From Actinomycetes bacterium (GTDB taxonomy: Bacteria > Actinomycetota > Acidimicrobiia > Acidimicrobiales > Palsa-688), in contig JAKBAM010000002.1 of NCBI GenBank assembly GCA_021809105.1, positions 62,001 to 126,000 on the forward strand: a DNA stretch of 64,000 nt. Reading direction: 5' to 3'. The notes beneath the pieces are model-generated. The model saw only the letters and a program-made list of their open reading frames with translations, ran no database searches and was not told the DNA's origin. This document shows, in pieces, positions 8,650-47,394 of the stretch. The stretch's first letter is position 1; every line of letters starts with the position of its first letter. The position numbers were made by a program, and so were the translations under genes.

Positions 8650-10317
8650 TCAGGAGGGTCTCTCGGCGAGCTCCTCGCGACGCTGCTGGCGGAGGATGAA
8701 GCGCTGGACTTTCCCGCTCGGGGTCTTCGGCAGCTGCTCGACGAACACTATGTGGCGCGGGTAGGCGTGGGCAGCGAACTTCTGCTTCACGAGAGTCTGG
8801 AGCTCATTGACCAGGCCGTCATCGCCGACGCAGCCCTCGGCGAGCACAACGTGTGCCTCCAGGACCTCGCCGCGGACCTCGTCTGGTACGGCTATCGCCG
8901 CGCTCTCGGCAACTGAGGGATGCATTGCCAGCACCGACTCCACCTCGAAGGGACCGATTCGGTACCCGGCCATGATGATGATGTCATCGTCGCGCGACCG
9001 GAAGAAGAAGTCGCCGTCCTCGTCGACGCTCGCTGTATCGCCGGTGTAGTACCAACGGCCGTCGGGGCTGAACTTGCTAGCCGTCGCCTCCGGCGCCTCG
9101 TGGTAGCCGAAGAACCACGCCAGGGGGCTCTCCGACATGTCGACCGCGACCCGGCCGATGTCGCCGGTGTTGGCCGGTATGTCGGCGTCGGGCTCCAGGA
9201 CGTGCATTGACCAGCCGGGCATGGGTCGCCCCATGCTGGCCCGCTTGAGCGGTCGCCGGAGGGCCGGGTGGTGGTGGTTGTTGACGAGCATTCCGCCCTC
9301 GGTCTGGCCGTAATGGTCATGGACCGGCGTGCCGAGGACATCGATCGCCCATAGGTTGATCTCAGGGGTGAGGGGTTCGCCGGCGCTCGACGCGCAGCGC
9401 AGGGACAAGCCGCGCGGCGCGGGAGCGGACGAGGCCCGCAGGGACCGGTAGACGGTGGGGGCGGCGGCGAAGTTGGTGACCCCGTGCTGGCTCAACACGG
9501 CCCAGGTGAGCTCGGGGGAGAAGGGCGCGTCCAGCAGCAGCGATGGCACGCCCAGGGTGAGCGGCCCGAGGATGGCGTAGTACAGGCCGTAGGCCCATCC
9601 CGGGTCGGCGGCGTTCCAGAACACGTCGTCGCTTCTGAGGTCGAGGGCGTACTTCATGTAGGTCGCGAACGCGGCTAGGGCCTTTACCGGTGCTACGACC
9701 CCCTTGGGCGAGCCGGTGGTGCCGGAGGTGTAGATGTGGATGAGCCCGCCGTCGCCGCCGACCGATGCGGGCTGGACCCCGAGAGCCCGATCGGCTTCGA
9801 GGTCGCTGAGCAGGAGATCGCCCGTGCGGCCCGTGGCATCCCCGGCAACCACTACCTGCCAGGGAGCGGCGGCCGGGATGTCCTCGCCCGGGTCGAGCTT
9901 CGCCCGCTGCGAGGGGTCGCACACGATCAACTTCGCCCCGCTGCCCACCAGCCGGATGGCGATGGCGGGGGGAGCGAACGCGGTAAAGAGCGGCACCTGG
10001 ACCGCACCCGCGCGCCAGATGGCGAGGAGCACGGTTACGTAGTCGGCGCTCTTACCCATCAGCGTCGCGACCCGGTCGCCGGGTCGGATGCCCCGGGCAC
10101 GGAGGGCCGTGGCCACCCGCTCCGATCGATCCCGCAGCTCCCCATAGGTGAGCGTAGTGGACCGGAGGTCTCGGTCCACTACGGTGAACGCTACTCGGTC
10201 CGCTCGGTGGTCGTCGCAGAGCAGTCGGGCCACGCTCGCATCGGGCCCCCCGTAGCGCTCGAGGAGGAGGTCGACGTCCGAGGTGGGATCGGGTGATGGC
10301 GTGGATCCTGCACTCAT
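8650..10317 (-). CDS. Acyl-CoA synthetase, AMP-binding family (module copy 1)
   Basis: A 555-residue ANL-superfamily ligase. The P-loop IYTSGTTGSPKG is near residue 210, the HDHYGQTEGG A5-type motif near 320, TGDTASVDEDGDFF near 425, the hinge AGYRIGPFEVES near 455 and the catalytic Lys in KTPSGKVQR near 530. It adenylates a carboxylic acid and forms the CoA thioester; overall form resembles acetyl/medium-chain or benzoate-type ligases, and substrate is undetermined. ATG at 10317 has AAGGGGAA upstream. It is a clear paralogue of 35559-37202, and both lie beside a large alpha/beta hydrolase and an amidase. Confidence 0.92.
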   Translation of the reverse strand: MSAGSTPSPDPTSDVDLLLERYGGPDASVARLLCDDHRADRVAFTVVDRDLRSTTLTYGELRDRSERVATALRARGIRPGDRVATLMGKSADYVTVLLAIWRAGAVQVPLFTAFAPPAIAIRLVGSGAKLIVCDPSQRAKLDPGEDIPAAAPWQVVVAGDATGRTGDLLLSDLEADRALGVQPASVGGDGGLIHIYTSGTTGSPKGVVAPVKALAAFATYMKYALDLRSDDVFWNAADPGWAYGLYYAILGPLTLGVPSLLLDAPFSPELTWAVLSQHGVTNFAAAPTVYRSLRASSAPAPRGLSLRCASSAGEPLTPEINLWAIDVLGTPVHDHYGQTEGGMLVNNHHHPALRRPLKRASMGRPMPGWSMHVLEPDADIPANTGDIGRVAVDMSESPLAWFFGYHEAPEATASKFSPDGRWYYTGDTASVDEDGDFFFRSRDDDIIIMAGYRIGPFEVESVLAMHPSVAESAAIAVPDEVRGEVLEAHVVLAEGCVGDDGLVNELQTLVKQKFAAHAYPRHIVFVEQLPKTPSGKVQRFILRQQRREELAERPS

Positions 10318-10405
10318 TGCTTCCCCTTGCTCACTTCCAACGTTCATGGGTGTCATCGTCAGACTGGCGCTCTGCTGCGCCACCGCATCCCCTGCCGATT
10401 AGCCA

Positions 10406-10415: not shown

Positions 10416-10556
10416 GAACATAGTTGGTCTTCGCCCCACAGCGATGGCTGCCATGCTCTAGTATGCTTTACGGACGGCCAACAGACTATCAGTCCGGAAT
10501 TGGGAAGGCTGCAGAGGAACATGCGGTCGCGGTGGACTGGGGAGAGGGGAAGTTTG

Positions 10557-11930
10557 ATGACGGTGACAGTCACGCCAGCGACGCTGTACCGGCCGGAGTT
10601 CGTCGAGGGCTCGCAACCGTTCATTCCAGGGATGGGTCACCAAGGTCGCCTCAGCGACTTCGACTACATCGAGGAGGAGTGGTTCGCCACAGGCGAGGAG
10701 GACGGGCGCCCCTATGTGACCACGGTGCTCGTGCGGATCCCACGCGACGCCAGCCGCTTCAGCGGGACGGTCATAGTGGAGCCTCTGCATTTCTTTCCCA
10801 TATCGCCGGTCTTCAGCTTCACATCCGAGTACATCATGCGCTCTGGGCACGGCTGGGTCTGCGTGGGTTCGCAGAAGACATCAATCGACATCCATGTCAA
10901 GCCGTCGAACCCTCAACGCTACGGTTCTCTGCACATCGAGGCCGAGCCGCTCCCGCCCGAGGCGCACCATCTGGACCTTGGCACCCTGCCCGCGGACATC
11001 AGCAATACCCACCTGTGGTGGGAGCACCTGCCACGCCAGAACAGGGCTTCGCACGCCATCCTGGCCCAGGTAGGGGCAGCGATCAAGGCCAGTGCCGGCC
11101 CGCTCGCCGGGTTCGATGTCTCATGCGCCGTGCTGGTCGGCCATTCTGGCACCGGATACCTCGTGTCCAGGTACATACGGGAGGGGCACGACGCACTGCG
11201 CCGCGAGGATGGGTCCTCTGTCTACGACGGCTACTTCCCGTCGGGGTGGCCGACGTCGGCATTCGGCCCGTGTGACGTCCCGATAGTGCAGGTAGTCACC
11301 CAGGGTGACTACGCCGGCGACAACGTCACGTTCTTCCGTCCCGGTTTCGACGGGCTGGCCTATCGGCGGCCGGACAGTGACGAGTCGGGGGATCGCTTCC
11401 GCCTCTACGAGTTGGCCGGCGTCGCTCATACCTCGACCCAGTACCCACCGATCAACGACATTGAGTTTTTGAAGCAGATACAGAGCGGGATCATGGCGGA
11501 GGCGGGGATGCAGATGAGCGGTATGCCCTTCAACCAGCTCTTCCAGGTGGCACTGGACCATCTGGTGGGCTGGGCAGCGGAGGGCATTGCGCCACCACGC
11601 GCCGAGCGCCTCGAGATGGGGGCAGACGGCTGGTTCGTCAGGGATGAGCATGGCAACAGCGTGGGTGGGGTCCGGACCGCCCATCTCGACGTTCCCAGGG
11701 CGACCTACACCTCGAACACGATCTTGCCCGGCGGCCAGCCGGGCTTTGCCTCGTTCGGGTTCGAGGAGCCCTTCGACGCCGCGACGATGAAGCGTCTCTA
11801 CCAGAGTAGGGACTCTTATCTCCGGCGCTTCAATCTACGTCTTGACGAGCTCATCGGCCAGGGCTGGTTCCTGGCTGACGATGCCGAGGAGTTCCGCGCC
11901 GAAGCCGAGAAGATCGTCGTCCCGTTCTGA
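10557..11930 (+). CDS. Large alpha/beta hydrolase domain protein (PF20091-like), intact
   Basis: A 457-residue protein of a poorly characterised actinobacterial hydrolase family. The N-terminal FDYIEEEWFATGEEDGRPY and FSGTVIVEPLH segments, the nucleophile elbow VGHSGTG near residue 196, the catalytic His in LAGVAHTST near 290 and a C-terminal helical FDAATMKRLYQ...FNLRLDELIGQGW tail are all present. ATG at 10557 has GGAGAGGGGA in front. The function within this family is not known to me; ester or lactone cleavage is likely. It is followed after 89 bases by an amidase, the same order as in the 34754-32834 module. This copy is the reference for judging the core-deleted relatives at 15915-16654 and 34221-34754. 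Confidence 0.8.
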   Translation: MTVTVTPATLYRPEFVEGSQPFIPGMGHQGRLSDFDYIEEEWFATGEEDGRPYVTTVLVRIPRDASRFSGTVIVEPLHFFPISPVFSFTSEYIMRSGHGWVCVGSQKTSIDIHVKPSNPQRYGSLHIEAEPLPPEAHHLDLGTLPADISNTHLWWEHLPRQNRASHAILAQVGAAIKASAGPLAGFDVSCAVLVGHSGTGYLVSRYIREGHDALRREDGSSVYDGYFPSGWPTSAFGPCDVPIVQVVTQGDYAGDNVTFFRPGFDGLAYRRPDSDESGDRFRLYELAGVAHTSTQYPPINDIEFLKQIQSGIMAEAGMQMSGMPFNQLFQVALDHLVGWAAEGIAPPRAERLEMGADGWFVRDEHGNSVGGVRTAHLDVPRATYTSNTILPGGQPGFASFGFEEPFDAATMKRLYQSRDSYLRRFNLRLDELIGQGWFLADDAEEFRAEAEKIVVPF

Positions 11931-12019
11931 CCCGGATCCTAGCCCACATTCTTTTAGTCCCAGGCTGGTTCGCAATTGTTTGATGGTATGGCGCAGCAAC
12001 CGAAACCGTGGAGGATGAT

Positions 12020-13381
12020 ATGGCCGACGAGCTGACATGGGCGCCTGCATGGCGGATCAGCGAGCTGATCCGGGCGAAGGAGGTGTCGCCGGTGGAAGTG
12101 CTCGATCATTTCCTCGGTCGGATCGAGCAGCACCAAGGGCTGCTTCGCGCCTTCGACCATCTCGATGAGGGCCGCGCCCGGCGGGATGCGAAGGTGGCCG
12201 AGGTCGCCGTCGCATCGGGGGATGAGCTTGGCCTCCTTCATGGGATCCCGATGGCTGTCAAGGGTCACCTCGACATCGAGGGCCTCCCCCAGACGATGCC
12301 GTTCGGCAACGGCATCGCGGAGCACGACGACCTGACGGTCGAGCGGTTGCGCGAGGCCGGAGCGGTGATCGTGGGACACACCGGGATGCCGGTCTACTCC
12401 AGCGACGGTAGTTTCGACTACGAAGCAACCGCCCGCAACCCGTGGGATCCGTCTCGCACCCCTGGAATATCTAGCGCCGGTAGTGCAGCTGCGGTGGCCG
12501 CCGGTCTGTTGCCGATGGCTATTGGCTCCGACGGCGGTGGCTCGACGCGCCTTCCGGCCGCTTACACGAGCCTGGTTGGCGTCCATCCGACCGGAGGCAT
12601 GGTTCCGTGGATGGGTGCCTTGGCGACGAGCGCAACCTCGACCATCGGGCCCATCGCGCGCGATGTGCTCGACGCCGCCACTGTGTTGGCGGTGATCGCT
12701 GGACCTGACGGGCGTGACGAGATCGGACTTCCGCTCGACCTCCCCGATCCCCGCAGCGAACTAGACCGCGGCATCGAGGGCCTCAGGCTGGCGTGGACCG
12801 ATGACTTCGGCTTCGCTCTCGACTACTCCGTCGAGGAGAGCCCCCGGGTCATCAGCCACATACGAGAGGCCGCCTTGGCCTTGAACGACATGGGTGCCAC
12901 CGTCGAGCCCACCGACGAGCAGTGGGAGGATTACGCCATCGTGATGCATGCCAACTTCGCCGCCGCGGGCGTGGCCAGCATGGGCCTCGGAGCCAGCGGT
13001 GACGTAGGCGAACTTCGCCGATCGGCGACCGCAGTGCGCCAACGGAACTGGCTACGATTTCGAAAGCTTTTCGGCCAGTACGACTTGCTGCTGTCCCCGA
13101 CTATCCACAGTGTGGCCCCGCCTATAGAGGTATTCGCCACGCGCATCCCCTCCGGGATGTCGCTCGTGGAGGGCGGTCCGGGACCGATGAGCTACTCAGT
13201 TTATACGGCCCAGTTCAACGTGCTGAGGTTCCCGGCAGTCTCGGTCCCGTGCGGTTTCGTCGACGGGTTGCCCGTCGGCATGCAGATCGTCGGATTCCCC
13301 GGGAGCGATGCGAAGATCCTCCGCCTCGCTCGAGCGTTTCGTCATGCCTTCCCCCACGACGCGCGGCCTACGATCAGCTGA
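12020..13381 (+). CDS. Amidase signature family protein (module copy 1)
   Basis: A 453-residue amidase. The Ser-cisSer-Lys machinery is visible: Lys in PMAVKGHLD near residue 82, the first Ser region in [15 protein letters not shown] near 155 and the nucleophile region [13 protein letters not shown] near 175. The C-terminal [22 protein letters not shown] block is also typical. It hydrolyses a C-N bond of an amide. ATG at 12020 is used because GGAGGA stands five bases upstream and its N-terminus then aligns with the paralogue at 32834-34210 ([12 protein letters not shown] versus [12 protein letters not shown]). The first Ser-loop reads SSAGS instead of the common SSGGS, a mild change. Confidence 0.92.
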
Positions 13382-13462
13382 AGACCGCTCGGCCCCGGCC
13401 ACGCACTTGACTTCCAGGCCGAAACCTCCTGGAGGATCGTCGAGCGTGATAGCGATGGGAGG

Positions 13463-13790
13463 GTGGGTCAGGTGTTCGACGAGATTGACCTGATCGTCGA
13501 GAGGGATCTGATGGTCGCGATGCGGGATGGGGCGGCCCTGCGTACTGACGTGTACCGGCCGCCGGGGCCAGGTCCGTTTCCTGTGGTGGTGAGCCGCACC
13601 GCTTACGCGCTCAGGGGCCGTCCGGTGACTGTCGGTCTGGCCGAGCAGGCGAAGTTGCTGGCGAGGCAGGGGTACGTGGCCATCATGCAGAATTGCCGGG
13701 GCCGGTTCGGCTCGGAGGGCGAGTTCCACCCAGGTCTGTGCGACATCGAGGACGGGTACGACACGATCGAGGTGATTGTGGGGGAGCGGG
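13463..13790 (+). pseudogene. N-terminal stump of a CocE/NonD family hydrolase
   Basis: The reading frame starts like the intact CocE proteins at 25145 and 47395: MVAMRDGAALRTDVYRP, then GPGPFPVVVSRTAYA, CRGRFGSEGEFHPG and EDGYDTIE. Homology stops at about base 13780, just before the segment that would carry the nucleophile elbow (GASYGG in the intact copies). The open frame continues without family resemblance and runs antisense into the GH43 gene. About 110 of roughly 580 residues remain, so the product cannot be an active hydrolase. The 200 bases from 13791 to 14000 hold nothing I recognise. Confidence 0.75.
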
Positions 13791-15914: not shown

Positions 15915-16654
15915 TCAAAGCGGCGCCATTTCGGCTTCTTCCTGTTGCAGCCTGTCGCCATCTACAGCCAAAATCCAGCCGCCTTTGATCGTCGCGGCAA
16001 TGCTTTGGTTGAAGCGGTGGAGATAGTTGGCGCGCGTCCCGTAGAGCTGCTGTAGTTGCTCGAGTGTGAACGGCACCTCGACGCGGACGAGGTTGCGTAC
16101 GTAGCGCGTCGCGACATGGCGGGCGGTCGGAACATCGACATAGGGTGACCGCACTCCGCCCTTGGCGTTGCCAAATTCGTCCGTCACGAACGCGCCGTTC
16201 GCGATCTTGATGGCGGCTGCGTGTGGCGGGACCACGCCTATCGTCACCCAGTCCACGAGGCGGACGAACGCTGCGTGACTGAACGGGGCAGACGGAAACT
16301 GACTCAGCCGTTCGCCCGGTTCCAGAGTGACGCCGAGCTGGGGGATGCCACTGACATCGCGCAGGCCCCGGGTTGGCAGGTGCGGGCAGGCGGTCACTTG
16401 GTAACAGCGGCAGCGGTCGTCGGTCTTGTCGGTGTCGGGCCGCGCCGCTGTATTGCTCGGATTAGCAGGGAGGTCGTATAAGGCTGCCCGTCGAGCGCGC
16501 CTGAGATGAAGTACTCCTCTTCGACGTAGCCATGATCCCGCAGGAGATCGGACACCGGCGGATCGGACAGCCCCACCGGCGATGCTGCGCCGCCGGAAGG
16601 CTTGCCAGACTCGGCCGTCACAGGGATCGGTCCCGCTACCTTCAGGATTCCCAC
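15915..16654 (-). pseudogene. Core-deleted remnant of a PF20091-like alpha/beta hydrolase
   Basis: Reading leftward, a GTG at 16654 with GGAGG upstream opens a normal family N-terminus (VAGPIPVTAES, HGYVEEEYFISGALDGQPYTTSLLIR) that ends near 16445. After a short junk segment and a frame change, a family C-terminus follows from about 16390 (FVRLVDWV, FVTDEFGNAKGGVRSPYVDVPTA, NYLHRFNQSIAATIKGGW) to the stop at 15915. The roughly 200-250 residues in between, which should hold the nucleophile Ser elbow and the His loop, are missing. It is the second of three members of this family here that are near the intact amidase module and one of two lacking the core. Confidence 0.8.
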
Positions 16655-24440: not shown

Positions 24441-25148
24441 ACGGGATACTTCAAACGAGCGGCCAGCTGCCGGTAGTCCAGGCTCCATACGGCGGCCAGG
24501 CGTGGGTCGAGCAGCTCGACTTCTCGTATGGCCAACTGCAGTGCTGTTCGAAGTTACGATGGAGGTACGCCGAGGGGAGGCATTAGCTTCTGGGAACGAA
24601 TGGAGCGGGCAAATCGACGCTCCTGCGGGTCATCGCAGGCTTGGAGAGACCCCAAAAAGGATCGATCACCTGCGACGGTCGCGACATCACCGGGCTGCCG
24701 GCAGAGTCCCTCGCCGGCCCGGGCCTGGTCCTCATCCCAAGTGGCCGGGCGGTATTCACCGACATGACCGTCGACGAGAACCTGCAGATTCAGGGACTCT
24801 GGCTCAGGACGCAACGAGAGGTGCTCAAAGGGCGCAGAGAGCGAGCCCTGGACACCTTCCCGCGCCTCGCCGAGCGTCTGCGCCAGCAAGCAGGACGCCT
24901 GTCCGGCGGCGAACAGCAACAGCTGGCTCTCGCCAGGGCGTTGATACTCGACCCTAAGGCGCTCTGTATCGACGAGCTGTCGCCGGGGCTGCCCCTGTAA
25001 TCGTCGGCGAGTTGATGGAGATTGTGCAAAACCTGAACAGAAATGGGATCACGACAATCGTCGTCGAGCAGAGCCTGAACATCGCCTCGAAGCTCTGCGA
25101 GAGAGCAGTCTCTCTCGAAAAGGGCCACGTCCGCTTCGAGGGCGCTAT
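24441..25148 (+). pseudogene. Frameshifted LivF-type ABC ATPase
   Basis: Read across three frames, a LivF ATPase can be reconstructed: LDFSYGQLQ, VLFEVTMEVRRGE, LLGTNGAGKSTLLRV (Walker A), LSGGEQQQLALARALILDP, CIDELS (Walker B) and ITTIVVEQSLNIASKLCERAVSLEKGHVRFEG. Small losses at about 24540 (one base), 24586 (two bases) and 24990 (one base) break it. The C-terminus is cut off where the convergent CocE gene ends. It matches the ATPase half of the MFS-LivF fusion at 40695-42941 closely in plan. LivH, LivM and LivG genes are absent here. Confidence 0.75.
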
Positions 25149-26977
25149 GCGCGGGGGATTACGGGCAGGATCAGACGTGACGGGTGAGTGGCGTCGTGGA
25201 AGACCTGCTGGGTCGCGGACACCACCTGGCCGGTGTCGTGGGTTATGCGCCCTCCTGTGTTTGGGTTCAGCTCATAGGTCGGAAACTCGCTCGATGAGAC
25301 GTACAAGCGGATCTGGTGGCCGGCTTTGAACACGTTGCTCGTGGCCCACATGTCAATATCGAAGCGATAGATCGCCCCGGGCCGCATCGGATGCGCGGCG
25401 ACAAAGCGGCTTCGGACTATCCCCTGGCAGATGGTGACGACTTGACCATCGGGGAACGCGTCGAGGAGTTTGGCGGTGAAATCGGTATCAGCCACCGATG
25501 AGGCGGCCCAGAGCTCGAGGGTCACCGGGCCGGTGACCTCGATGTCGTCCACGAGAGGTCGCGTGGTATAGACGAGTACGTCACGGCGGCGACCAGTGTT
25601 TCGAGGGTCGATGTCGTCGCCAGCGGTCAGCCCGATGCCTATGGGACCTGGAACCGGATGGTGGGGGTCGTAGACGTATTCATCGGCCGGTTCAGTTGCG
25701 GGTGGACGCCGCGAGACGGTGCCGTCGCCGTCGATCGTGTTGGCACGGCCATCGCTGTGAAGGTAGTAGCTCGTCCATTGCGTGCGCGCGAGGGGCCACT
25801 CCCACTCCTCACGCCAATAGTTGTCGCCCATGACGAAGATCCGTACTGGGGGCTGCTCGTCGAATTCTGGGTTCTCGCCCCTGAGGTGGTGGCGGAAGAA
25901 CTCCATGACGGGGGAGTCGGAGTGGAGGGCGTACATGTCAGGATGCCCTGGGCCAGATGGGACGTCGGCTCGAGGGACGACTCCTGGTACGTGAGACCAG
26001 GGTCCGACCACGAGGCGTTGGGTCTTTCGAATTGCCTCGCTGGTGCCGTACTGCTTCATTGTCTCGTAACCATCGAGCACGCCGTTGGTGAAGAAGTCGT
26101 ACCAGCCGGTCATGTGTTGAATGGGTAGCGTCAGGGATTCGATGTGCGCGTCGGCGTCCACTTGGCGCCAGTACGGGTCGTTGGGGTCGTAGTGGTCGCA
26201 CCAGTCTTGCCACCAGGGCGCCAACTCTCGCAGCTCCTCGATGTCGCGGAGCGGTCTTCTGGCGAGCAGTTGCTCGAGCAGCGCCCCTTGTTCCAGGACG
26301 GCCTTCTCGAACGCGGCCGGGTTAAGGGACATCTCCTGCATGGAGCGTTCGATCTCGGCGAACACCGGCAGCGTCTGAGGGACCCCCCGCCGCTCGGCTT
26401 CCCAGGTGGTCATCTGCCCCGTCCACATGAGCGCGAAGCCGACGCCCAGTACGCCTCGTGTCCAGTACCAGATGTTGCAACCGATGAACGACCACGACGC
26501 CGAGACGGGTGCGATGGCTACGAGGTGCGGCGGTCGGGCGATCGCCGCGAGCCAGGCCGCCAGCCCGCCGTATGATGCACCGAACATCCCGACCTTACCG
26601 TTCGACCACGGCTGCGACGCGGCCCACTCCACCGTGTCGTAGCCATCTTCGACATCGGGGTGGAACGGATAGAACACGCCCTCGGAGCCGTATCGCCCGC
26701 GGCAGTGCTGGAAGACGACGACGTACCCCTGCCCGGCGACCTCCCGGTTCCGCACGTCCATCATCCCGTCAGCCACCGAATACGGGTAACGGCACAACAG
26801 CACCGGGAATGGACCGGGGCCGGAAGGTACGTAGACGTCGCTTCGCAACCGCACCCCGTCCCGCATGGGGATCATGACGTCGTAGTTCACGCGAAGTTCG
26901 TTGTCAGCTTCCACTGATCCGGGCGCTCCTTCCATGCGTTGGCGGGCTCCAGCTGGCCGGCGGCCGCTCTCGGTCAT
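25145..26977 (-). CDS. CocE/NonD family (X-Pro dipeptidyl-peptidase S15-like) hydrolase
   Basis: A 610-residue hydrolase. The N-terminal strand VMIPMRDGVRLRSDVYVP, CRGRYGSEGVFYPFHPDVEDGYDTVEW, the nucleophile elbow MFGASYGGL near residue 135 and the C-terminal jelly-roll (TLELWAASSVADTDFTAKL) are all in place. The family cleaves esters such as cocaine-type benzoyl esters, lactam-acyl bonds or peptides. A GAGGAGGACGAG site precedes ATG 26977. It is a close relative of 47395-49131 and of the stump at 13463. No secretion signal is seen. Its last codons overlap the LivF remnant on the other strand. Confidence 0.88.
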   Translation of the reverse strand: MTESGRRPAGARQRMEGAPGSVEADNELRVNYDVMIPMRDGVRLRSDVYVPSGPGPFPVLLCRYPYSVADGMMDVRNREVAGQGYVVVFQHCRGRYGSEGVFYPFHPDVEDGYDTVEWAASQPWSNGKVGMFGASYGGLAAWLAAIARPPHLVAIAPVSASWSFIGCNIWYWTRGVLGVGFALMWTGQMTTWEAERRGVPQTLPVFAEIERSMQEMSLNPAAFEKAVLEQGALLEQLLARRPLRDIEELRELAPWWQDWCDHYDPNDPYWRQVDADAHIESLTLPIQHMTGWYDFFTNGVLDGYETMKQYGTSEAIRKTQRLVVGPWSHVPGVVPRADVPSGPGHPDMYALHSDSPVMEFFRHHLRGENPEFDEQPPVRIFVMGDNYWREEWEWPLARTQWTSYYLHSDGRANTIDGDGTVSRRPPATEPADEYVYDPHHPVPGPIGIGLTAGDDIDPRNTGRRRDVLVYTTRPLVDDIEVTGPVTLELWAASSVADTDFTAKLLDAFPDGQVVTICQGIVRSRFVAAHPMRPGAIYRFDIDMWATSNVFKAGHQIRLYVSSSEFPTYELNPNTGGRITHDTGQVVSATQQVFHDATHPSRLILPVIPRA

Positions 26978-32074: not shown

Positions 32075-32827
32075 TCACCGGGAAGTGACCAAGTCGTTCA
32101 GCATCGCGCCCAGCGCCTCGGGCCGGCTGATCATGCACATGTGGCCTGCGTCGAGATCGATGACGGGGCAGTTCCCGACGTTGTGGGCGAACCGGAGTTG
32201 CTTTTCCGGCGAGACGATGATGTCCTGCAAGGTGCGGACCCAGGTTCTGGGTATCGTCGCACGGAGAGGCGATAGGTCGACCGGGTCCGTTGTGAGGTGC
32301 GGGGCTTCGGGTACGAGTCGTTCGACGCACCAAGAGAGCTGTTCCTCGTCGAGATCGTTGCCGAGGACGATCTTGGCAAGCGCCGGCTCCATCGGACGAG
32401 GATCAAATGACTCGGGTGCCTCGCGGATCCTCGACTGGATGTCTGGCTCCAACGTGTCAAACGCGCTGCACCCATTTTCGGGCACCGTGCAGGCAACGAA
32501 GACGGCGTGGTGCACGCGGTGGCCGAGCAGGTCGACCATGGCGGGCATCGAGCACCCGGCTAGCGAGTGGCCGACAAGGACGACTTCGGCGAAGCCGGCG
32601 GCATCGATGTCGTCGACTACCGCTGTCGCGCAGTCGGCCAGGCGGACCGAGTGGAGCGGAGCCGGGTGCTCGCCGCGCCCGGGGAGGTCCACTGCGAGTG
32701 CTGGCCCGGCCAGGTGCGGGAGGAGTCGATCCCAGCACCGGCTATCCAGGCCACCACCATGGATGAAGACGAGAGGAGTCATCGGGCGTTCGTCACTGTT
32801 CTGCAAGAGGTCGCCATCGCTCGTCAT
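32075..32827 (-). CDS. Alpha/beta hydrolase (esterase EstA/MenH-like fold)
   Basis: A 250-residue small hydrolase with FIHGGGLDSRCW near residue 22 (oxyanion HGGG-type), the nucleophile elbow LVGHSLAG near 90 and the catalytic His in LDAGHMCMISRP near 228. This pattern resembles plant methylesterase/hydroxynitrile-lyase-like proteins and bacterial relatives. It starts six bases after the amidase stop and is the last gene of the minus-strand operon that begins at 37202. The start may be ATG 32827 or the internal ATG at residue 16. The substrate is unknown. Confidence 0.84.
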   Translation of the reverse strand: MTSDGDLLQNSDERPMTPLVFIHGGGLDSRCWDRLLPHLAGPALAVDLPGRGEHPAPLHSVRLADCATAVVDDIDAAGFAEVVLVGHSLAGCSMPAMVDLLGHRVHHAVFVACTVPENGCSAFDTLEPDIQSRIREAPESFDPRPMEPALAKIVLGNDLDEEQLSWCVERLVPEAPHLTTDPVDLSPLRATIPRTWVRTLQDIIVSPEKQLRFAHNVGNCPVIDLDAGHMCMISRPEALGAMLNDLVTSR

Positions 32828-32833: not shown

Positions 32834-34210
32834 TCAGCTGACAGGTGGGCGCTCGTCACGAGGGAATGTCTGCTGGAAGGCCCGTGCGAGCCGGAGGATT
32901 GTGGGGTCGCTGCCTGGAGGGCCGACGATTTGGAGGCCAACTGGTAATCCGTCGACGTAGCCGCACGGCACCGAGACGGCGGGGAATGCGAGCCAGTTGA
33001 ACATGGCTGTATAGATGGCGTAACCATCCATGCCCAGGCGGCTTTCGTCCATCGCCGTCGGTCCCGACCACCAGTGCCGCCATCGGTCGAGGGTTGGCGC
33101 CACGGATTGGATGGTTGGGCACAGGAGAAGGTCGTGGTGTTGGAAGAGCTTCCGGAATCGGACCCATGTCCGCTGGCGAAGGTCGGTGGCGGACTCCCAG
33201 GCTCCGGCGGGTACGGCGGCACCGGCTTCGGGTCCTAGGATGGGCATGTCGGAGAAGACGGATCGGTGGATGTGGAGCGCAGGGATGTAGTCCTCCCACT
33301 GCTCCCCGGTCGACTCGACTTCGGCACCGATGTCAGTGAGGGCGAAGGCGGCGTGGCGGATTTGGCTGATCACACGCGGGCTTTCGTCAACGGCATAGGA
33401 GGATGCGAAGCCGAAGTCATCGGTCCAAGCCAGCCGCAGACCCGCTGCGCCCCTGTCGAGGTCGCTGAGGGGATCTGGAAGGTCGATCTTGAGGCCCATG
33501 TGATCACGACCGTCGGGACCGGCGATCACGGACAGGACCGTCGCCGCGTCGCGGACGTCACGGGCCATCGGGCCGATGGTGGTTCCGATGCGAACGGCCC
33601 AGGGTCGGTGGTCGACCCAGGGGACCAGGCCGCCTGTTGGGTGGACACCCACAATCCCCGAGAAAGCTGCCGGCAGCCTCGAGGAGCCGCCGCCATCTGA
33701 CCCGAGCGCGACCGGTAGCATCCCGGCCGCGACGGCGGCGGCCGAGCCCGAGCTGGACGCACCCGGCACTCGAGTGGGATCCCATGGGTTGCGGGCGAGT
33801 GCATCCCAATCGTATTCCCCGATGTTGTTCATCACGGGCATCACGGTGTGGCCGACGATCACCGCCCCCGCTGAGCGGAGGCGCTCAACGGTCAGGTCGT
33901 CGCGGTCGGCTACGCCGTGCCAGAAGACGAACCCAGGGCGGGGAAGTCCCTGAATGTCGATATGGCACTTGACCGCGGTCGGCACGCCATGCAGCGGTCC
34001 CAGGTCCTCGCCCGCCAGCACGGCTGCCTCCGCGGCTTTCGCCTGGAGTCGGACGCGATCGGGCTCGACGTTCGAGAATGCCTGCAGCATCGGCTCGTGC
34101 TGCTCGATCCGGCCGAGGAAGTGCTCGGCCACCTCGACGGGTGACACCTCCCGGGCCCCTACGAGCTCTCGGATGCGCCACGCCGGCGCCCAGGTCAGTT
34201 CCTCAAGCAT
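32834..34210 (-). CDS. Amidase signature family protein (module copy 2)
   Basis: A 458-residue amidase. Lys in PTAVKCHIDIQG near residue 82, the [12 protein letters not shown] Ser-loop near 152 and GSDGGGSSRLPAAFSG near 172 make up the Ser-cisSer-Lys site. It is a close paralogue of 12020-13381 over its whole length, including the unusual N-terminus LTWAPAWRI and the TDDFGFA segment. It lies ten bases downstream of the core-deleted hydrolase at 34221-34754, the same order as in copy 1. Hydrolysis of an amide of unknown identity is expected. Confidence 0.92.
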   Translation of the reverse strand: MLEELTWAPAWRIRELVGAREVSPVEVAEHFLGRIEQHEPMLQAFSNVEPDRVRLQAKAAEAAVLAGEDLGPLHGVPTAVKCHIDIQGLPRPGFVFWHGVADRDDLTVERLRSAGAVIVGHTVMPVMNNIGEYDWDALARNPWDPTRVPGASSSGSAAAVAAGMLPVALGSDGGGSSRLPAAFSGIVGVHPTGGLVPWVDHRPWAVRIGTTIGPMARDVRDAATVLSVIAGPDGRDHMGLKIDLPDPLSDLDRGAAGLRLAWTDDFGFASSYAVDESPRVISQIRHAAFALTDIGAEVESTGEQWEDYIPALHIHRSVFSDMPILGPEAGAAVPAGAWESATDLRQRTWVRFRKLFQHHDLLLCPTIQSVAPTLDRWRHWWSGPTAMDESRLGMDGYAIYTAMFNWLAFPAVSVPCGYVDGLPVGLQIVGPPGSDPTILRLARAFQQTFPRDERPPVS

Positions 34211-34220: not shown

Positions 34221-34754
34221 TCAGAAGTCGATGTTCTTGGCTTCGCTGCGCATGTCGCCAGCGTCTTCGGCTAGGAGCCACCCTTGGTCGACGAGCTCGT
34301 CCAGTCGACGGTCGAAGCGCTCCCGGTAGGCTGACGGGTCCTGGTTAAGGGCCCGTAGCGTCGCCCGATCGAACGGTTCGTCGGTGCCAACCGTGAGGTG
34401 GCTCGGCGCTCCGTCTGTTTGCACGTGCATGTCAAGCGTCGTCTTCTGCGCCGTGACCTCGACCCACGCGTGCCCAGAACGCAGGATGTAGGGGGCGCAG
34501 TAGATCCAGATCGGCGCGATGCCGTGGACATGCAGCGGCTCGACGATCAACGTGCCGCTGAAATGGTCGACCTCTCGGGGCCGGCGCACGCACGGCGTCG
34601 TGGCGTAGGGGTGGCCGTCCTCCTCGCCGGTGGCGGTCCACGCCTCCTGGACGTAGTCGTAGTCATCCAGCGGCGGCACATCTGTGCCGTGAGGCGTGAA
34701 CACCCCCGAACCGTCCTCCTCCAGTCGCCGGAGCGCAGCAGGGTAGACTTTCAC
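34221..34754 (-). CDS. Internally deleted PF20091-like hydrolase lacking its catalytic core
   Basis: A continuous 177-residue frame joins the N-terminal about 120 residues of the family (YDYVQEAWTATGEEDGHPY, HFSGTLIVEPLH, QKTTLDMHVQ) to its last about 55 (DEPFDRATLRALN, RFDRRLDELVDQGWLLAEDAGDMRSEAKNI). Compared with the intact 457-residue copy at 10557, roughly 275 residues, including the nucleophile Ser and catalytic His, are absent, with the frame kept. The GTG start overlaps the enoyl-CoA hydratase stop, and the stop lies ten bases from the amidase, so translation coupling is intact. It cannot be a hydrolase. It is either a recent deletion or a retained small protein with another role. Confidence 0.8.
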   Translation of the reverse strand: MKVYPAALRRLEEDGSGVFTPHGTDVPPLDDYDYVQEAWTATGEEDGHPYATTPCVRRPREVDHFSGTLIVEPLHVHGIAPIWIYCAPYILRSGHAWVEVTAQKTTLDMHVQTDGAPSHLTVGTDEPFDRATLRALNQDPSAYRERFDRRLDELVDQGWLLAEDAGDMRSEAKNIDF

Positions 34755-35566
34755 GGCCTCTCCCTCACGGTCGTCGGCACTGCGGCGATCGGATCGTCTT
34801 CATTGTGCCGCGTAGCGAAGGCGGCTATGGCGGCGCGGCTCTCCGAGGCTCGCAAAAGCATGTCAAAGGCCTCGTTCTCCCTATGCCGCCCTTCTGCGAC
34901 GGCACGCGTGAACGTCGCGGCGATCAGACGCTTGGACGCGACCAGCGACGCGAGGGGGTGGACGGCCAGCCGGCGGGCGTGGTCAAGTGCCTCGGTGAGG
35001 AGGGCGGCGTCGGGCACGACTTTCCATGCCAAACCAGCCACTTGGGCCTCTGTGGCATCGATCCACTCGGAGCTCATCAGCATCCAAGTGGCGGCTTGCC
35101 TGCCGACAAGGAGCGGGAAGGTGACGCTGGCCGCGGCCTCGGGCGCCAGCGCAAGACTGGTGAAAGGGCATCTAAACCGGGCCGTCTCTGCGACGAACAC
35201 CAGATCGGCGAGTCCCAGCATCGTCACGCCCAGACCGACCGCGATCCCGTTAACGGCACAGAGCAATGGCTTGGTGAAGCCAGCCAGGTGGTCGACCAGC
35301 CTCTCGAAGTTGTGCGGTGCATCGACGTTGCCCCGGAAGTCGCCGCTCTCGGCCAACTCGTAGAGATCGGTGCCGGCAGAGAACGCCCGACCTGCCCCGG
35401 TGACAACGACGACCCGAACGCTGTCGTCGCTCTGGGCCGCCAGCAGGGCGCCGGAGAGCGATGCGCAGAGGGCCTGGTTGAAAGCGTTCAGCTGGTCGGG
35501 CCGGTTCAGGACCAAGGTGCGGACCCCGTCGCAGTCGTCGATCAGGACGACGTCCGGACTAGGCAT
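34751..35566 (-). CDS. Enoyl-CoA hydratase/isomerase (crotonase) family protein
   Basis: A 271-residue crotonase: LVLNRPDQLNAFNQ at the N-terminus, the oxyanion loop SAGTDLYEL near residue 65, NGIAVGLGVTMLGLADLVFVAE near 105-125 and SLALAPEAAASVTFPLL near 140. The second loop reads AVGLGV rather than GGGxxL, so the Glu pattern is that of isomerase-like or unassigned members (PEAAAS holds a Glu as in enoyl-CoA isomerases). ATG 35566 overlaps the acyl-CoA synthetase stop by eight bases. It links the ligase to the hydrolase-amidase pair in one operon, a gene missing from module copy 1. Confidence 0.87.
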   Translation of the reverse strand: MPSPDVVLIDDCDGVRTLVLNRPDQLNAFNQALCASLSGALLAAQSDDSVRVVVVTGAGRAFSAGTDLYELAESGDFRGNVDAPHNFERLVDHLAGFTKPLLCAVNGIAVGLGVTMLGLADLVFVAETARFRCPFTSLALAPEAAASVTFPLLVGRQAATWMLMSSEWIDATEAQVAGLAWKVVPDAALLTEALDHARRLAVHPLASLVASKRLIAATFTRAVAEGRHRENEAFDMLLRASESRAAIAAFATRHNEDDPIAAVPTTVRERP

Positions 35567-37202
35567 CGTCGGCAGCCGCCATCTGGGCTCGCCTCTCTTC
35601 GCGAAGAAGGAAGCGCTGGATCTTCCCCGACGGTGTCTTCGGCAGGGACTCGACGAAATGGACTGCACGCGGGTAGGCGTACGCCGCGAGGTTGTCGCGC
35701 ACCCTGTCCTTGAGTTCGACGGCCAGCTCATCCCGGTCACCGACCGCTCCCTCGAGCACCACGAAGGCCTCGATGACTTCGCCCTTCAGCGCGTCCGGGA
35801 CCGCTATAACCGCACATTCGGCCACATCGGGGTGGGTGAGGATCACCGACTCCACATCGAAAGGGCCTATCCGGTAGCCGGCCATGATTATCACATCGTC
35901 ATCACGAGCCATGAAGAAGTAGTGGCCATCGTCATCGCAGCGGCCAGAGTCACCGGTGAGGTACCAACGGCCGTCCGCGGTGAACTTTTCGCGGGTCGCA
36001 TCTGGAGCGTCGACATATCCGTCGAACCACGCGGCCGGACTGGCCTGCACGTCGACAGCCACACGACCGACCTCCCTGGGCGCGGCGACGACATCCGACT
36101 CCTGCCCCAGAACCCCTGTCGTCCATCCCGGTAGCGGGACACCCATCGAACCCGGCTTCAGCGGCCTGCCGAGCGAGGGGTGGTGATGGTTGCAGAACAC
36201 CATGCCCAGCTCGGTCTGTCCGTAATGGTCATGCACACTTATACCCAGATGCGATTCCGCCCATTGGTTGACCTCTGGCGTCAACGGCTCGCCCGCACTA
36301 GACGCCTTGCGCAACGCCACCGACGCTGGCGCGGCTAACCGAAGCGCCCGGTACGCGGTCGGCGCGGCCGTGAAGTTCGTCACCCCGAGATCGGCCAGGA
36401 TTCTCCAAGTAGCGTCAGCGGTGAACCTGTCCCCGTGCACGATGCTCGTCCGCCCGGCCGCCAGAGGCGCCAATACCGCGGCAAACAGCCCGTATGCCCA
36501 GCCGGGATCGGCTGCGCACCAATACACGTCCTCCTCGGTGACATCAAGGCCGAACTCGAGATACAGCTGCCAGGTAGCCATCGCGGCGACCGGGATAGCC
36601 ACACCCTTGGGTCGCCCTGTCGTGCCCGACGTGTACATTCTCACCATCGGACCCCGCCCCCCGACCACGACCGCCGGCCGGGGCGAGCCGCGAGACGAGA
36701 CAAAATCGCGGAAATCTATATCGGGCGGTGACAGCTCCGTGCCCGGATGGCTGCGCAGGTGGACCACCCGCCACGGCGGAACGGTCCCAGCAGGACGGTC
36801 AAGCTTGGTCCGCTGACCGGAGTCGGTCACGACTACCTTCGCGCCGCTGCCCTCCAGCCTCATGGCAATGGCCGGCGGCGCGAACGCCGTGAACAGCGGG
36901 ACGTGCACCGCGCCCAGACGCCAGATCCCGACGACAGTAGACAGATACTCTGCGCTCTTGCCCATCAGCGTCGCTACCGGATCGCCCGCTGAGACACCCA
37001 GCCCCGCCAACCCAGCCGCTACCCGCTCCGAGCGCTCCCGCAGCTCGCCATAGGTCAACCTCCCACTCGAGAAGTCCTGGCTGACGACTGTAAAGGCGGC
37101 GGCATCCGGGTCGTGCCGATCACACAGCAGGTCAGCCAGACATGCATCAGGAGCCCCGAAGCGGGCCATCAGCTCGTCTACGCGCTCGTTCACCGAACTC
37201 AA
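35559..37202 (-). CDS. Acyl-CoA synthetase, AMP-binding family (module copy 2)
   Basis: A 547-residue adenylating ligase. MYTSGTTGRPKG near residue 200, HDHYGQTELGMV near 315, TGDSGRCDDDGHYFF near 420, AGYRIGPFDVES near 445 and KTPSGKIQR near 520 give the full ANL motif set. It matches 8650-10317 along its whole length. The TTG at 37202 has GGAGG eight bases upstream; a GTG at 37193 is an alternative. It is the first gene of a five-gene minus-strand operon (ligase, crotonase, deleted hydrolase, amidase, hydrolase). It should activate the acid that the module releases or consumes (inference). Confidence 0.92.
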   Translation of the reverse strand: MSSVNERVDELMARFGAPDACLADLLCDRHDPDAAAFTVVSQDFSSGRLTYGELRERSERVAAGLAGLGVSAGDPVATLMGKSAEYLSTVVGIWRLGAVHVPLFTAFAPPAIAMRLEGSGAKVVVTDSGQRTKLDRPAGTVPPWRVVHLRSHPGTELSPPDIDFRDFVSSRGSPRPAVVVGGRGPMVRMYTSGTTGRPKGVAIPVAAMATWQLYLEFGLDVTEEDVYWCAADPGWAYGLFAAVLAPLAAGRTSIVHGDRFTADATWRILADLGVTNFTAAPTAYRALRLAAPASVALRKASSAGEPLTPEVNQWAESHLGISVHDHYGQTELGMVFCNHHHPSLGRPLKPGSMGVPLPGWTTGVLGQESDVVAAPREVGRVAVDVQASPAAWFDGYVDAPDATREKFTADGRWYLTGDSGRCDDDGHYFFMARDDDVIIMAGYRIGPFDVESVILTHPDVAECAVIAVPDALKGEVIEAFVVLEGAVGDRDELAVELKDRVRDNLAAYAYPRAVHFVESLPKTPSGKIQRFLLREERRAQMAAADDA

Positions 37203-40694: not shown

Positions 40695-42941
40695 GTGAGC
40701 GGCCCGGCATCGCCTCCCGCACCGGGCTCGCCCGCCGGAGACCTCAGCCCGGGAATCCAGGCGGACTTCGCCCGAGCGGTCCTCGATACAGAGGCTGACC
40801 GCCAGCAGGCCCATACGCAGGCGCAGGCCGACGTCGTACTTCCCGACGACCTTCTTCCGGGAACCCGCGAGGAGTCGATATCGCTTTGGAGCGGCCTGCG
40901 GCGCTACGGATCCGGCACATTTGGGATCTTGATGACAATCGTGGCGCTCGACAACCTGCAGGGGGCTGGCCTGTCGACACTCGCGCCGAACATACGTGCA
41001 TCGTTCCACGTGAGCAACGCAGTTATCACTTTTATCGGTGGCATATCGGGAGGCTTTCTGATCCTGGGAGTCCTCCCGATGGGATGGCTGAATGACCGGT
41101 ATCGCCGTGCTCCGATTGTCGCAGTCGCTACTTTCATTTTTGGTCTTATGGTGTTCGCCACCGGCGCGGCAAGGGCAATCTTCTTGTTTGTCCTGGCTCG
41201 CTTCGGCGGGGGAATATCGCAAGCCAGCACGTCGACGGTCCACGGATCGCTCCTAGCAGACACGTACCCGATCAGCCTCAGAGGTCGGCTGATCGGCGCC
41301 TCGTCGCTGGTTGCGACCGCCGGTGCAGCTACTCTCAGCCCGCTCCTCATGGGTGCTATCGCGACCTGGGCAGGTGGTCCGAGCGGTTGGCGTTGGGCCT
41401 TTTACATCCTTGCTGTCCCGATCGTACTGATGGCGCTCGTCGCGTTTCGCATCAAGGAACCGCCCCGTGGGCAGTTCGAGAAGCTAGACGTGCTGGGCGA
41501 GGTGCTGGCCGATACCTCGCCCGCGCCGCCCTCGCTTGAGGCGGCGTTTGACCGCGTGAAGCAGGTGAAGACGATGAAGACGTGTCTCGTGGCCTTCTGT
41601 GCCCTCGGTTTCACCTTCTTCACCGTCCCCACCCTGTCCAGCCTCTTTTTACAGGACCACTATCACCTGGACACGATCCAGCGAGGGGTCCTGGGCACGA
41701 TTACGGGCATTGGAGGTATCGTCGCGCTGCCGCTGATCGGCCGCTACTACGACCAGGTGTATCGAAAAGACCCAGCCAAAGCGGTCAACCTCATTGGCAT
41801 CATGCTCCTCCCGGTCGCCGTCGTCACGCCCATCCAGTACTTCATGCCCAATGTGGTGCTGTTCGCGGTGCTGGCTGTCCCGAGCGGAATCCTCACCGTC
41901 GGCGCTTACGCCATGATTGGGCCGGTCCTGGCCTCGGTGGCACCGTATCGTTTGCGGGGCCTGGTGGGTGCGGTGGGGGGGATCTACGTCTTCTTCATCG
42001 GTGCGCTTGGAGGGGCGGTCGTGTCGGCCCTGCTCGAGAGCGCGTTCGGGGTGAGGCCTGCCGTTCTCCTGCTGGTGATCCCGGCGGCCATCGTCGGCGG
42101 GTTGCTGTTGATGCGGAGTTCTAAATACATTCGCAACGATCTTTCGCAGATCGTGATCGAGCTCCAAGAAGAGCTCGATGAGCATCGCCGCCAGGAGAGC
42201 GATCCCGGGTCGATCCCGGTCCTGCAGCTGAGTCGGGTCAACTTCAGCTACGGGCACGTGCAGGTACTCTTCGACGTCAGCTTTGACGTTCGCCCCGGGG
42301 AAGTATTGGCGCTCCTTGGTACCAACGGGGCGGGCAAATCGACCGCTCTTCGGGTGGCGGCGGGTCTCGAGATGCCCGGACAGGGGGCCGTGCGTCTTCG
42401 TGGAGGCAGCATCACTTACACGTCGCCTGAGCAGCGGGCTCGCCTCGGTATCCACATCTTGCCTGGAGGCAAGGGCGTCTTCAGGGACATGACCATCTAC
42501 GAGAACCTGGAGATGGGTGGCTTCGTCTACCGGTCAGATCGCGGCGAGCTCAATCGGCGCATCGAGCGGTCGCTGGACATGTTCCCGGACCTCGCCCACC
42601 GCCGTGGACAGCGCGCCAGCACACTCTCGGGCGGCCAGCAGCAGATGCTCGCACTGGCGATCGCCCTGTTGCACGATCCTCAGGTCCTCATGATCGACGA
42701 GCTCTCGCTGGGGCTCGCGCCCATCGTCGTCCAGGACCTGATCCATGTGGTCGAAGGCCTCAAGGAGGCTGGGCTGACGATGATCATTGTCGAGCAATCG
42801 CTCAATGTGGCAGCAGCCCTCGCCGATCGAGCGGTGTTCCTCGAGAAGGGCCGGGTGCGGTTTTCCGGACAGATCCGGGACTTGATGGAACGAGACGACC
42901 TCGCGAGAGCGGTCTTCCTCGGGGGCGAGGTTTCGGGCTGA
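40695..42941 (+). CDS. MFS transporter fused to LivF-type ABC ATPase
   Basis: A 748-residue chimera. Residues about 65-480 form a major facilitator with about 12 hydrophobic segments and the MFS loop signature GWLNDRYRR near 130. After a basic/acidic linker (ELQEELDEHRRQ) a complete LivF ATPase follows from about residue 505: LGTNGAGKST (Walker A, near 541), LSGGQQQMLALAIALL (signature), VLMIDELSLGLAP (Walker B) and IIVEQSLNV. The frame is continuous across the join. Normally LivF is free and pairs with LivG; here it would be tethered to a second membrane domain. Start is GTG at 40695. The next gene overlaps the stop by one base. Confidence 0.9.
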   Translation: MSGPASPPAPGSPAGDLSPGIQADFARAVLDTEADRQQAHTQAQADVVLPDDLLPGTREESISLWSGLRRYGSGTFGILMTIVALDNLQGAGLSTLAPNIRASFHVSNAVITFIGGISGGFLILGVLPMGWLNDRYRRAPIVAVATFIFGLMVFATGAARAIFLFVLARFGGGISQASTSTVHGSLLADTYPISLRGRLIGASSLVATAGAATLSPLLMGAIATWAGGPSGWRWAFYILAVPIVLMALVAFRIKEPPRGQFEKLDVLGEVLADTSPAPPSLEAAFDRVKQVKTMKTCLVAFCALGFTFFTVPTLSSLFLQDHYHLDTIQRGVLGTITGIGGIVALPLIGRYYDQVYRKDPAKAVNLIGIMLLPVAVVTPIQYFMPNVVLFAVLAVPSGILTVGAYAMIGPVLASVAPYRLRGLVGAVGGIYVFFIGALGGAVVSALLESAFGVRPAVLLLVIPAAIVGGLLLMRSSKYIRNDLSQIVIELQEELDEHRRQESDPGSIPVLQLSRVNFSYGHVQVLFDVSFDVRPGEVLALLGTNGAGKSTALRVAAGLEMPGQGAVRLRGGSITYTSPEQRARLGIHILPGGKGVFRDMTIYENLEMGGFVYRSDRGELNRRIERSLDMFPDLAHRRGQRASTLSGGQQQMLALAIALLHDPQVLMIDELSLGLAPIVVQDLIHVVEGLKEAGLTMIIVEQSLNVAAALADRAVFLEKGRVRFSGQIRDLMERDDLARAVFLGGEVSG

Positions 42942-45751
42942 TGCTCCTTGGTGCATCCTGGATCAACAGTCAGGTCGTCTTCGACGGGCTCGTGCAGGGC
43001 CTGGCGATCGCAGTGCTGGCGGTGGGCCTGGTGCTCATCTACCGCTGTACGAGGATAATCAACTTTGCGGTGGCCAACATGGGCGTGGTCGGTGCGACCA
43101 CGTTGCCCCTGTTGACGTTGCAGTACCACTTTCCCTTCTGGGTCGCGCTGGTGCTTTCGCTTCTCATTGGGTTGGCGCTCGGTATCCTCGTCGAGATCGG
43201 GATCATCCGTCGCCTTCGAAGGGCACCGCGGGTCGTCCTCCTGGTGGCTACTATCGGCCTGGCCCAGGTGGCATTGGCCATAGGGCGTGAGATCCCTTTA
43301 CCGGCTGACCAGAGCGCGCACTACCCGGTCGGAATCAACGTGTCGTGGGTGCTGGCTGGCATCACCATCCGAGGTGCAGATCTGGATATCGTTATCCTGG
43401 TGCCCGTCGCCATCGTCGGGCTGGCATGGTTCCTCGAGCGCACCATGCTCGGCAAGACAGTCAAGGCATGTGCCACCAACCCGGAGTTGGCGCGGTCGGC
43501 CAGCATCAGCCCGAAGCTGGTGTCGACCCTCGTGTGGGCCCTCGGTGCCGCGCTCGCCACCTTGTCGCTGGTGCTCATCGGCGGTGAGACCAGCTTGGCG
43601 GGTGGGCTGGCGTCGCTAGGGCCCGAGACGCTTGCCTGGGCGTTGGCGGCTGCACTATTTGCACGGATGTCCTCATTTCGTCGCGCCATGATCGCTGGAA
43701 TCCTCATCGGTATCGGGCAGAGCCTGGTGAATTTCAACTTCATCGCCGATACCGGTTTGATCGAGCTCCTGGTCTTTGGGACCGTCCTGCTCGCAGTCGT
43801 CCTGTACGGCCGAGAGCGCGTGGCAGATGAGGAGGTCTTCGCCTTCACGCCGCGGTCTCGCCCTATTCCTCAGAGGTTGCGGTCGAAGTGGTGGGCGAGG
43901 AACATCGACAAGAGTGGCCTGATGCTCCTCGGCGTGACCGCCTTGATCCTGCCGCTGCTCGTGACTGCACCATCCTCCCAACAGCTCTACACGGCCGTGC
44001 TCGCCTTCGCGATCTGTGCGTCGTCGCTGACGGTGATCACCGGTTGGCAGGGCCAGCTCTCCCTCGGCCAGATGGGCATTGCCGGTATCGCCGTCTTGTG
44101 CGCGGCGCGCCTTGTGCATTCGGGGGTGCCGTTCTGGTTGGCCATTGTCATGATGACCATCGGGGCGGCGGTGTTGGCCGCCGGGCTGGGGATCAGCTCA
44201 CTCCGAGTGCGGGGACTGTACCTGGCGGTAGTCACGTTCACGTTTGCCCTCGCCGCCGAGCAATACGTCTACTACCTGCCGGCCCTTAGCGGCGATGCGC
44301 CTGACGGTGCCAACGTCCCGTTCCCAGTGGGACGACTGTGGTTCATCTCCTTCCCTGGCCAGCGGACCTACTTCTACGTGGTCTTGGTCATCTTGGTCCT
44401 CGTGATCGTGGTGTTGAGTCGATTTCGGGACAGCAACATCGGCCGGACGATGAAGGCCGTCCGGGACAACGAGAACGCCGCGGCTGCCTACACACTGGCG
44501 CCGGGCCGCATCAAGATCCGTGCCTTCGCTTTCGCGGGCGCGCTCGCCGGGCTGGGTGGGTGCCTGCTCGGCGGCGCGTTCGCCAATGTGCCGTTTACTG
44601 CGAGCTTCTTCCTCGTCGACAATTCACTGGCACTGGTCACGATGGTCGTGATCGGCGGCATGGGCTCGGTGACAGGAGCCCTGTTGGGCGCCATCTGGGT
44701 CATCGGCATTCCCGCAATTGCTCCAAACAACACAACTCTCTCGCTGTTGACATCGAGCCTCGGTCTTTTGGCGATCCTGCTTTACTTCCCACGAGGATTG
44801 AACCAGATCAGCTTCGCCGTGCGAGATGCCATCATGGATTGGGCGGATAGTCGGTTCGGGAAGGATGTCGGACCCGAGAGCGTGACCTATCCTCAAGGTC
44901 TGCGAAGGAGGGAAGGGCCGTTGGATCCCGCGGTCCCGGCGCTCGCGGTGTCCGATCTACGGGTCATCTTTGGCGGTAATGTTGCAGTCAACGATGTGTC
45001 GTTGGCCGTTGACAGTGGCGAGATCGTGGGGCTCATCGGAAGCAACGGTGCAGGCAAGTCGACCGTCATGAACGCAGTTGGTGGGTTTGTCCCAAGTCGA
45101 GGATCGGTCCGGATCCTCGGCCAAGAGGTGTCCGGCCGGCCGCCGTCCTCGCGAGCATCGCTTGGACTGGGTCGAACCTTCCAATCGGCGACACTCTTCC
45201 CCGAGCTCACGGTGACCGACACGCTCTTGGTCGCTCTCGAGGCGAAAGGGAAGACGGCGATGGTGTCGACGGCATTGCGTCTTCCGAGCGCCAGGCGACG
45301 AAGTCGGGCCTCGTCGGCCGAGATAGGCGAGCTGGTCCACTTCCTGGGCCTCGGACCCTACCGCGACCACTACATAGATGACCTGTCCACCGGCACCAGA
45401 AGGGTCGTGGAGTTGGCCGGTCTTCTGGCACTGAACGCCAGGGTAATCTGCCTGGACGAACCGACAGCAGGATTGGCACAACGCGAGACGGAGGCCTTCG
45501 GTCCGCTCATCAAGATGGTTCAGCGTGAGCTGCAGGCCTCGGTGCTGCTCATCGAACATGACATGCCGCTGGTACTGAGCATCAGCGATCGCATGTATTG
45601 CCTGGAGGCCGGCGCAGTGATCGCCGAAGGGATCCCTTCCGAGATTCGAGACAATCCGCGTGTGATCGCTAGTTACCTGGGTACGGACGAGCGTGCCATC
45701 AGGCGCAGCGGAGCGACCACTGAGGCGCCGAAGCGTGGTGTAACACCGTGA
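42941..45751 (+). CDS. LivH-LivM-LivG triple fusion, branched-chain-type ABC permease/ATPase
   Basis: A 936-residue protein carrying three Liv subunits in one chain. LivH-like permease covers about residues 1-290 (GLAIAVLAVGLVLIYRCTRIINFAV), LivM-like permease about 320-625 (TGWQGQLSLGQMGIAGI, SLRVRGLYLAVVTF), and LivG-like ATPase about 665-925: GSNGAGKST near 700, LSTGTRRVVEL near 813 in place of the LSGGQ signature, and VICLDEPTAGL near 833. With the LivF attached to MFS, the operon supplies both permeases and both ATPases plus the binding protein. The following SDR starts inside the last codons (GTGA). Confidence 0.92.
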   Translation: MLLGASWINSQVVFDGLVQGLAIAVLAVGLVLIYRCTRIINFAVANMGVVGATTLPLLTLQYHFPFWVALVLSLLIGLALGILVEIGIIRRLRRAPRVVLLVATIGLAQVALAIGREIPLPADQSAHYPVGINVSWVLAGITIRGADLDIVILVPVAIVGLAWFLERTMLGKTVKACATNPELARSASISPKLVSTLVWALGAALATLSLVLIGGETSLAGGLASLGPETLAWALAAALFARMSSFRRAMIAGILIGIGQSLVNFNFIADTGLIELLVFGTVLLAVVLYGRERVADEEVFAFTPRSRPIPQRLRSKWWARNIDKSGLMLLGVTALILPLLVTAPSSQQLYTAVLAFAICASSLTVITGWQGQLSLGQMGIAGIAVLCAARLVHSGVPFWLAIVMMTIGAAVLAAGLGISSLRVRGLYLAVVTFTFALAAEQYVYYLPALSGDAPDGANVPFPVGRLWFISFPGQRTYFYVVLVILVLVIVVLSRFRDSNIGRTMKAVRDNENAAAAYTLAPGRIKIRAFAFAGALAGLGGCLLGGAFANVPFTASFFLVDNSLALVTMVVIGGMGSVTGALLGAIWVIGIPAIAPNNTTLSLLTSSLGLLAILLYFPRGLNQISFAVRDAIMDWADSRFGKDVGPESVTYPQGLRRREGPLDPAVPALAVSDLRVIFGGNVAVNDVSLAVDSGEIVGLIGSNGAGKSTVMNAVGGFVPSRGSVRILGQEVSGRPPSSRASLGLGRTFQSATLFPELTVTDTLLVALEAKGKTAMVSTALRLPSARRRSRASSAEIGELVHFLGLGPYRDHYIDDLSTGTRRVVELAGLLALNARVICLDEPTAGLAQRETEAFGPLIKMVQRELQASVLLIEHDMPLVLSISDRMYCLEAGAVIAEGIPSEIRDNPRVIASYLGTDERAIRRSGATTEAPKRGVTP

Positions 45752-47213: not shown

Positions 47214-47273
47214 CCCTCCGGGGTGGCCAGGTTGGGATCGCGACAGCGCTACTTTGCCCTCCTCGCTTGATTG

Positions 47274-47300
47274 TATGACACGTGGACGGGTACTGTCGTA
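47274..47300. promoter_or_regulatory. Imperfect inverted repeat between tetR and cocE-like genes
   Basis: TATGACA and TGTCGTA are separated by 13 bases and match as reverse complements at six of seven positions. The site lies 95-121 bases before the hydrolase start at 47395 and after the TetR gene, a fitting place for that regulator's operator. Evidence is symmetry only. Confidence 0.3.
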
Positions 47301-47394
47301 TCGAATGCGGTATGCGCATCGGGGCCGGCGCGGATCAGCAGCGACGGTATCCCGAGTCTCGCGATCCGGCCGCCTAATTGGAAGGAGCCGTTAT

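Follow-up and report, generated by a model that had tools for sequence, protein, structure and literature searches.

A core-deleted PF20091 hydrolase frame ahead of an amidase gene is probably the remnant of a recent in-frame deletion

Gene decay is widespread in bacteria (PMC522871), and internal-deletion pseudogenes form part of it. The short frame analysed here, which lies between a hydratase gene and an amidase gene, resembles such pseudogenes in that the loss of its core is seen in one genome only, broken genes lie in its neighbourhood and an intact paralogue is present; it differs from them in that it has stayed in frame and its ends have not drifted. Because the frame is kept and the ends are undrifted, automatic annotation would list it as a gene. 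The family to which it belongs, PF20091, was not mentioned in the literature searched. We propose, with a probability of roughly 0.8, that the short frame is the remnant of a recent in-frame deletion and at most a translated spacer in front of the amidase.

The window, i.e. the whole stretch of 64,000 nucleotides that was analysed, carries one cassette of CoA ligase, PF20091 hydrolase and amidase twice, in diverged copies (Table 1). Copy A spans 8650-13381 and its hydrolase is intact. In copy B the order is CoA ligase, hydratase, short frame, amidase and alpha/beta hydrolase, all on the minus strand. Over the retained ends the two PF20091 hydrolases are 48-52% identical. Both amidases contain the Lys and Ser motifs that characterise the amidase-signature family.

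Table 1 Features of the two cassettes and of the broken hydrolase genes in the window.
Feature	Position	Strand	Basis or remark
Short PF20091 frame, core-deleted	34221..34754	-	177 codons; ORF, Pfam and paralogue alignment
N-terminal retained segment	34416..34754	-	Paralogue residues 1-114, 52% identical
C-terminal retained segment and stop	34221..34415	-	Paralogue residues 390-455, 48% identical
Enoyl-CoA hydratase/isomerase (PF00378)	34751..35566	-	Stop overlaps the GTG of the short frame
Amidase-signature amidase (PF01425), copy B	32834..34210	-	Lys-Ser-Ser motifs; own GGGGGA upstream
Alpha/beta hydrolase (PF12697)	32075..32827	-	Downstream of the amidase, same gene run, copy B
CoA ligase, copy B	35559..37202	-	Pfam and comparison with copy A
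CoA ligase, copy A	8650..10383	-	57% identical to the copy B ligase
Intact PF20091 hydrolase, copy A	10563..11930	+	455 aa; PF20091 match nearly end to end
Amidase, copy A	12008..13381	+	62-63% identical to the copy B amidase; ATG at 12020
S15/CocE-type hydrolase remnant	13454..13771	+	First ~100 residues only; directly after amidase A
Second PF20091 remnant	15915..16645	-	Core deleted, frame changed at about 16450

The short frame begins with GTG, ends with TGA and is clean, with a normal codon-position GC of 0.70/0.46/0.82. The Pfam profile PF20091 (Abhydrolase_10) matches it in two stretches (E 1.9e-25), and the score of 90.2 bits against a gathering cut-off of 23 places it within the profile; the homology indicated by this match is far above chance. 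When the intact paralogue of copy A was used as the reference, its residues 2-114 aligned at 34416-34751 and its residues 390-451 at 34230-34415, and residues 114 and 390 are exactly adjacent in the short frame, with nothing intervening. The join lies near 34415, with an uncertainty of about 34383-34411 at the DNA level. Compared with the intact hydrolase, the ends of the short frame are alike (about 50% identity), whereas about 275 codons (825 nt) of the centre are gone. The missing residues 115-389 include Ser195 (in GHSGTG) and His289 (in GVAHTS), presumably the catalytic residues according to the alpha/beta-hydrolase pattern, and this sets the short frame apart from the functional enzymes of the family. 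Judged from its sequence, the product cannot act as a PF20091-type hydrolase, because the nucleophile and the His are absent. Intact homologues thus exist beside a frame that lacks the essential parts, as expected of a remnant. The in-frame loss of a catalytic core, nucleophile and His included, with which the preliminary description began, is borne out by this alignment, as is the fusion of the two ends of a hydrolase; the sizes are revised to about 113 N-terminal and 64 C-terminal residues instead of about 120 and 55, the comparison protein has 455 instead of 457 residues, and the join moves away from base 34380.

The junctions of the short frame with its neighbours were also found as previously described: its start and the hydratase stop overlap as GTGA, and 10 bases, within which GGGGGA is located, separate its stop from the ATG of the amidase. 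This arrangement had been taken as a hint of a retained small protein. Any internal deletion, however, leaves both ends of a gene in place, and the kept coupling is therefore no additional evidence; nor is the kept frame beyond chance, as one deletion in three preserves it, in agreement with the earlier estimate. The coupling would count only if in-frame deletions were selected, out-of-frame ones starving the amidase of ribosomes, which is possible. Such a selected spacer, in which the frame is kept since translation through the remnant feeds the amidase, is a sub-case of the remnant reading; the GTGA overlap upstream and the 10-base gap downstream are consistent with it, but the ATG of the amidase is preceded by a GGGGGA of its own, the survival of the coupling after any internal deletion is not a sign of selection, and the amidase of copy A is not tightly coupled. 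We consider it rather unlikely. In copy A the hydrolase and the amidase are separated by 77-89 bases, so tight coupling is not common to both cassettes.

The same short form was looked for in related genomes, as had been suggested, and was found in none of the genomes or plasmids searched. Samples of 32 genomes of the family, 397 of the order, 365 of the class and 396 of the phylum (partly overlapping), and 150 genomes from the family to which the only good relative outside these belongs, contained matching frames of at least about 420 aa and no short form. Two scans of GTDB genome contigs gave no short form either (nothing in one, one distant match of 24% in the other), and the plasmid records gave one distant partial match and no short form. 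A genome of the same genus (G001) had no match at E 1e-8. The closest outside protein, from genome G730, is full-length and 44% identical to the intact paralogue. The short form is thus restricted to this genome within the genomes and plasmids searched, an outcome that the preliminary description had held to speak against a retained protein. It is not conserved across species, as expected of a remnant, and the sampled close relatives carry no cassette; the nearest relatives are only about 50% identical, and the absence, as read from these sequences, is that of the whole cassette and not specifically that of the short form.

The comparison with other genomes also bears on the proposal that the fused ends constitute a non-catalytic small protein with a job of its own, for example as an amidase partner or amidase chaperone. 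The open frame and its position in the operon agree with this proposal, but the short form occurs in no other genome searched and the amidase of copy A adjoins a hydrolase of full length, with no short form next to it. A partner should accompany the amidase elsewhere; relatives of the amidase in two genomes (G131 and G035, 50-52% identical) had no short or long PF20091 frame in the 10-13 kb around them. In one of these relatives (L045, G035:C111, 5939-7334) the match shifts frame between residues 123 and 127-135, and the gene is possibly broken or carries a sequencing error. A structure model of the short frame was of low confidence (mean pLDDT 51, pTM 0.43; 3 aligned sequences only) and, as a model, speaks neither for nor against a fold; the model of the intact paralogue was likewise of low confidence, with 3 aligned sequences only, and no solved structure was matched to the paralogue by sequence.

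The rate of change in the retained ends was compared by counting private changes in the short frame and in the intact paralogue, with the G730 protein as outgroup. In the N part (111 columns) each carries 13 private changes, and in the C part (64 columns) the short frame carries 5 and the paralogue 8. Relaxed selection, which had been named as a further argument against a retained protein, was not seen, as neither end has an excess of private changes; similar numbers of private changes indicate that the retained ends have not drifted unconstrained for long. Pairwise pN between copies A and B is 0.32-0.33 for the hydrolase ends, compared with 0.25 in the amidases and 0.31 in the ligases. The pairwise dN/dS of the short-frame ends is below 1, a value that mostly reflects the time before the deletion, in data in which synonymous sites are strongly diverged and no relative is closer than about 50%. 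These values suggest either that the deletion is young or that the ends are still constrained; both fit, because pairwise values also take in the period that preceded the deletion. Of the two, a recent deletion is more economical than continued constraint. The lack of acceleration in either segment and the dN/dS below 1 can be set to the credit of a small protein, but the latter mostly mirrors the time before the deletion, and together with the results from other genomes this makes a retained small protein very unlikely. Of the earlier interpretation, the in-frame core loss and the kept junctions stand, and the small protein or amidase partner is left without positive support. It is highly improbable that the two joined ends make up a new non-catalytic protein, retained for a function of its own within the operon such as holding or regulating the amidase; if such a function were demonstrated, the short frame would exemplify the birth of a small protein through deletion.

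An artefact of assembly or strain mixture, in which assembly would have dropped the core from a gene that is in reality full-length, was also considered. The source genome (3.65 Mb, 92% complete) is in 118 contigs and probably metagenome-derived, and a PF20091 gene on another of its contigs has a gap inside it (L006), which would be in keeping with such an origin. Against this, the window is without Ns, no repeats flank the join (one 11-mer pair, attributable to chance, occurs in another part of the gene), and an orphan core was looked for on the other contigs of the 92%-complete assembly and none was found. An artefact is therefore unlikely. Collapse between the paralogues was rejected, as their DNA is only about 64-69% identical, too distant for a k-mer collapse.

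Besides the short frame, two more hydrolase genes are broken in the same 64 kb. In the second PF20091 remnant, the N-terminal part runs to about paralogue residue 58 and is followed nearly directly by about residue 269 onward in another frame. A tetR-type gene starts just past this remnant on the opposite strand. The S15/CocE-type remnant has intact relatives at 25145-26977 and 47254-49131. Losses of cores and ends thus recur among the hydrolase genes of this partly decaying catabolic region, and that the frame was kept in one of them needs no special cause. The intact hydrolase of copy A, the adjacency of residues 114 and 390, the lack of a second core in the 92%-complete assembly and the two other broken hydrolase genes thus argue for a remnant, as do the confinement of the short form to this genome and private changes no more numerous than those of the paralogue, as a young deletion predicts. 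The clean frame, the normal codon-position GC and the absence of extra changes, which resemble a functional gene, count against a remnant.

We propose the following course of events. The catabolic cassette would have been doubled, either by an old and since diverged duplication or by two related acquisitions. In copy B, as comparison with copy A shows, about 825 nt were lost internally; the catalytic core was thereby taken from a presumed full-length ancestor, and the frame was kept by a one-in-three chance. The undrifted ends make a recent date of the deletion probable. If the remnant is translated, its only likely effect would be that ribosomes are passed on from the stop of the hydratase to the amidase start; polarity would thereby be avoided, and in-frame deletions could survive more readily than out-of-frame ones. 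Provided that the two hydrolases were redundant, the loss would be tolerable given the intact one of copy A. An in-frame core deletion can thus leave a clean, well-placed open reading frame that resembles a purposeful small protein, and caution is needed in reading such frames; the neighbouring out-of-frame PF20091 remnant displays the same kind of decay.

Other frames in the window were noted in passing. The frame at 24085-24957(+), of 290 codons, has no Pfam match; its start looks by eye like that of a ligand-binding protein, and a tblastn comparison with the window's two binding proteins gave no match. The frame at 40695-42941(+) encodes a 748-aa protein in which an MFS transporter domain (83-439) is joined to an ABC ATPase domain (526-669), and that at 42941-45751(+) joins a branched-chain-type permease to a second ABC ATPase.
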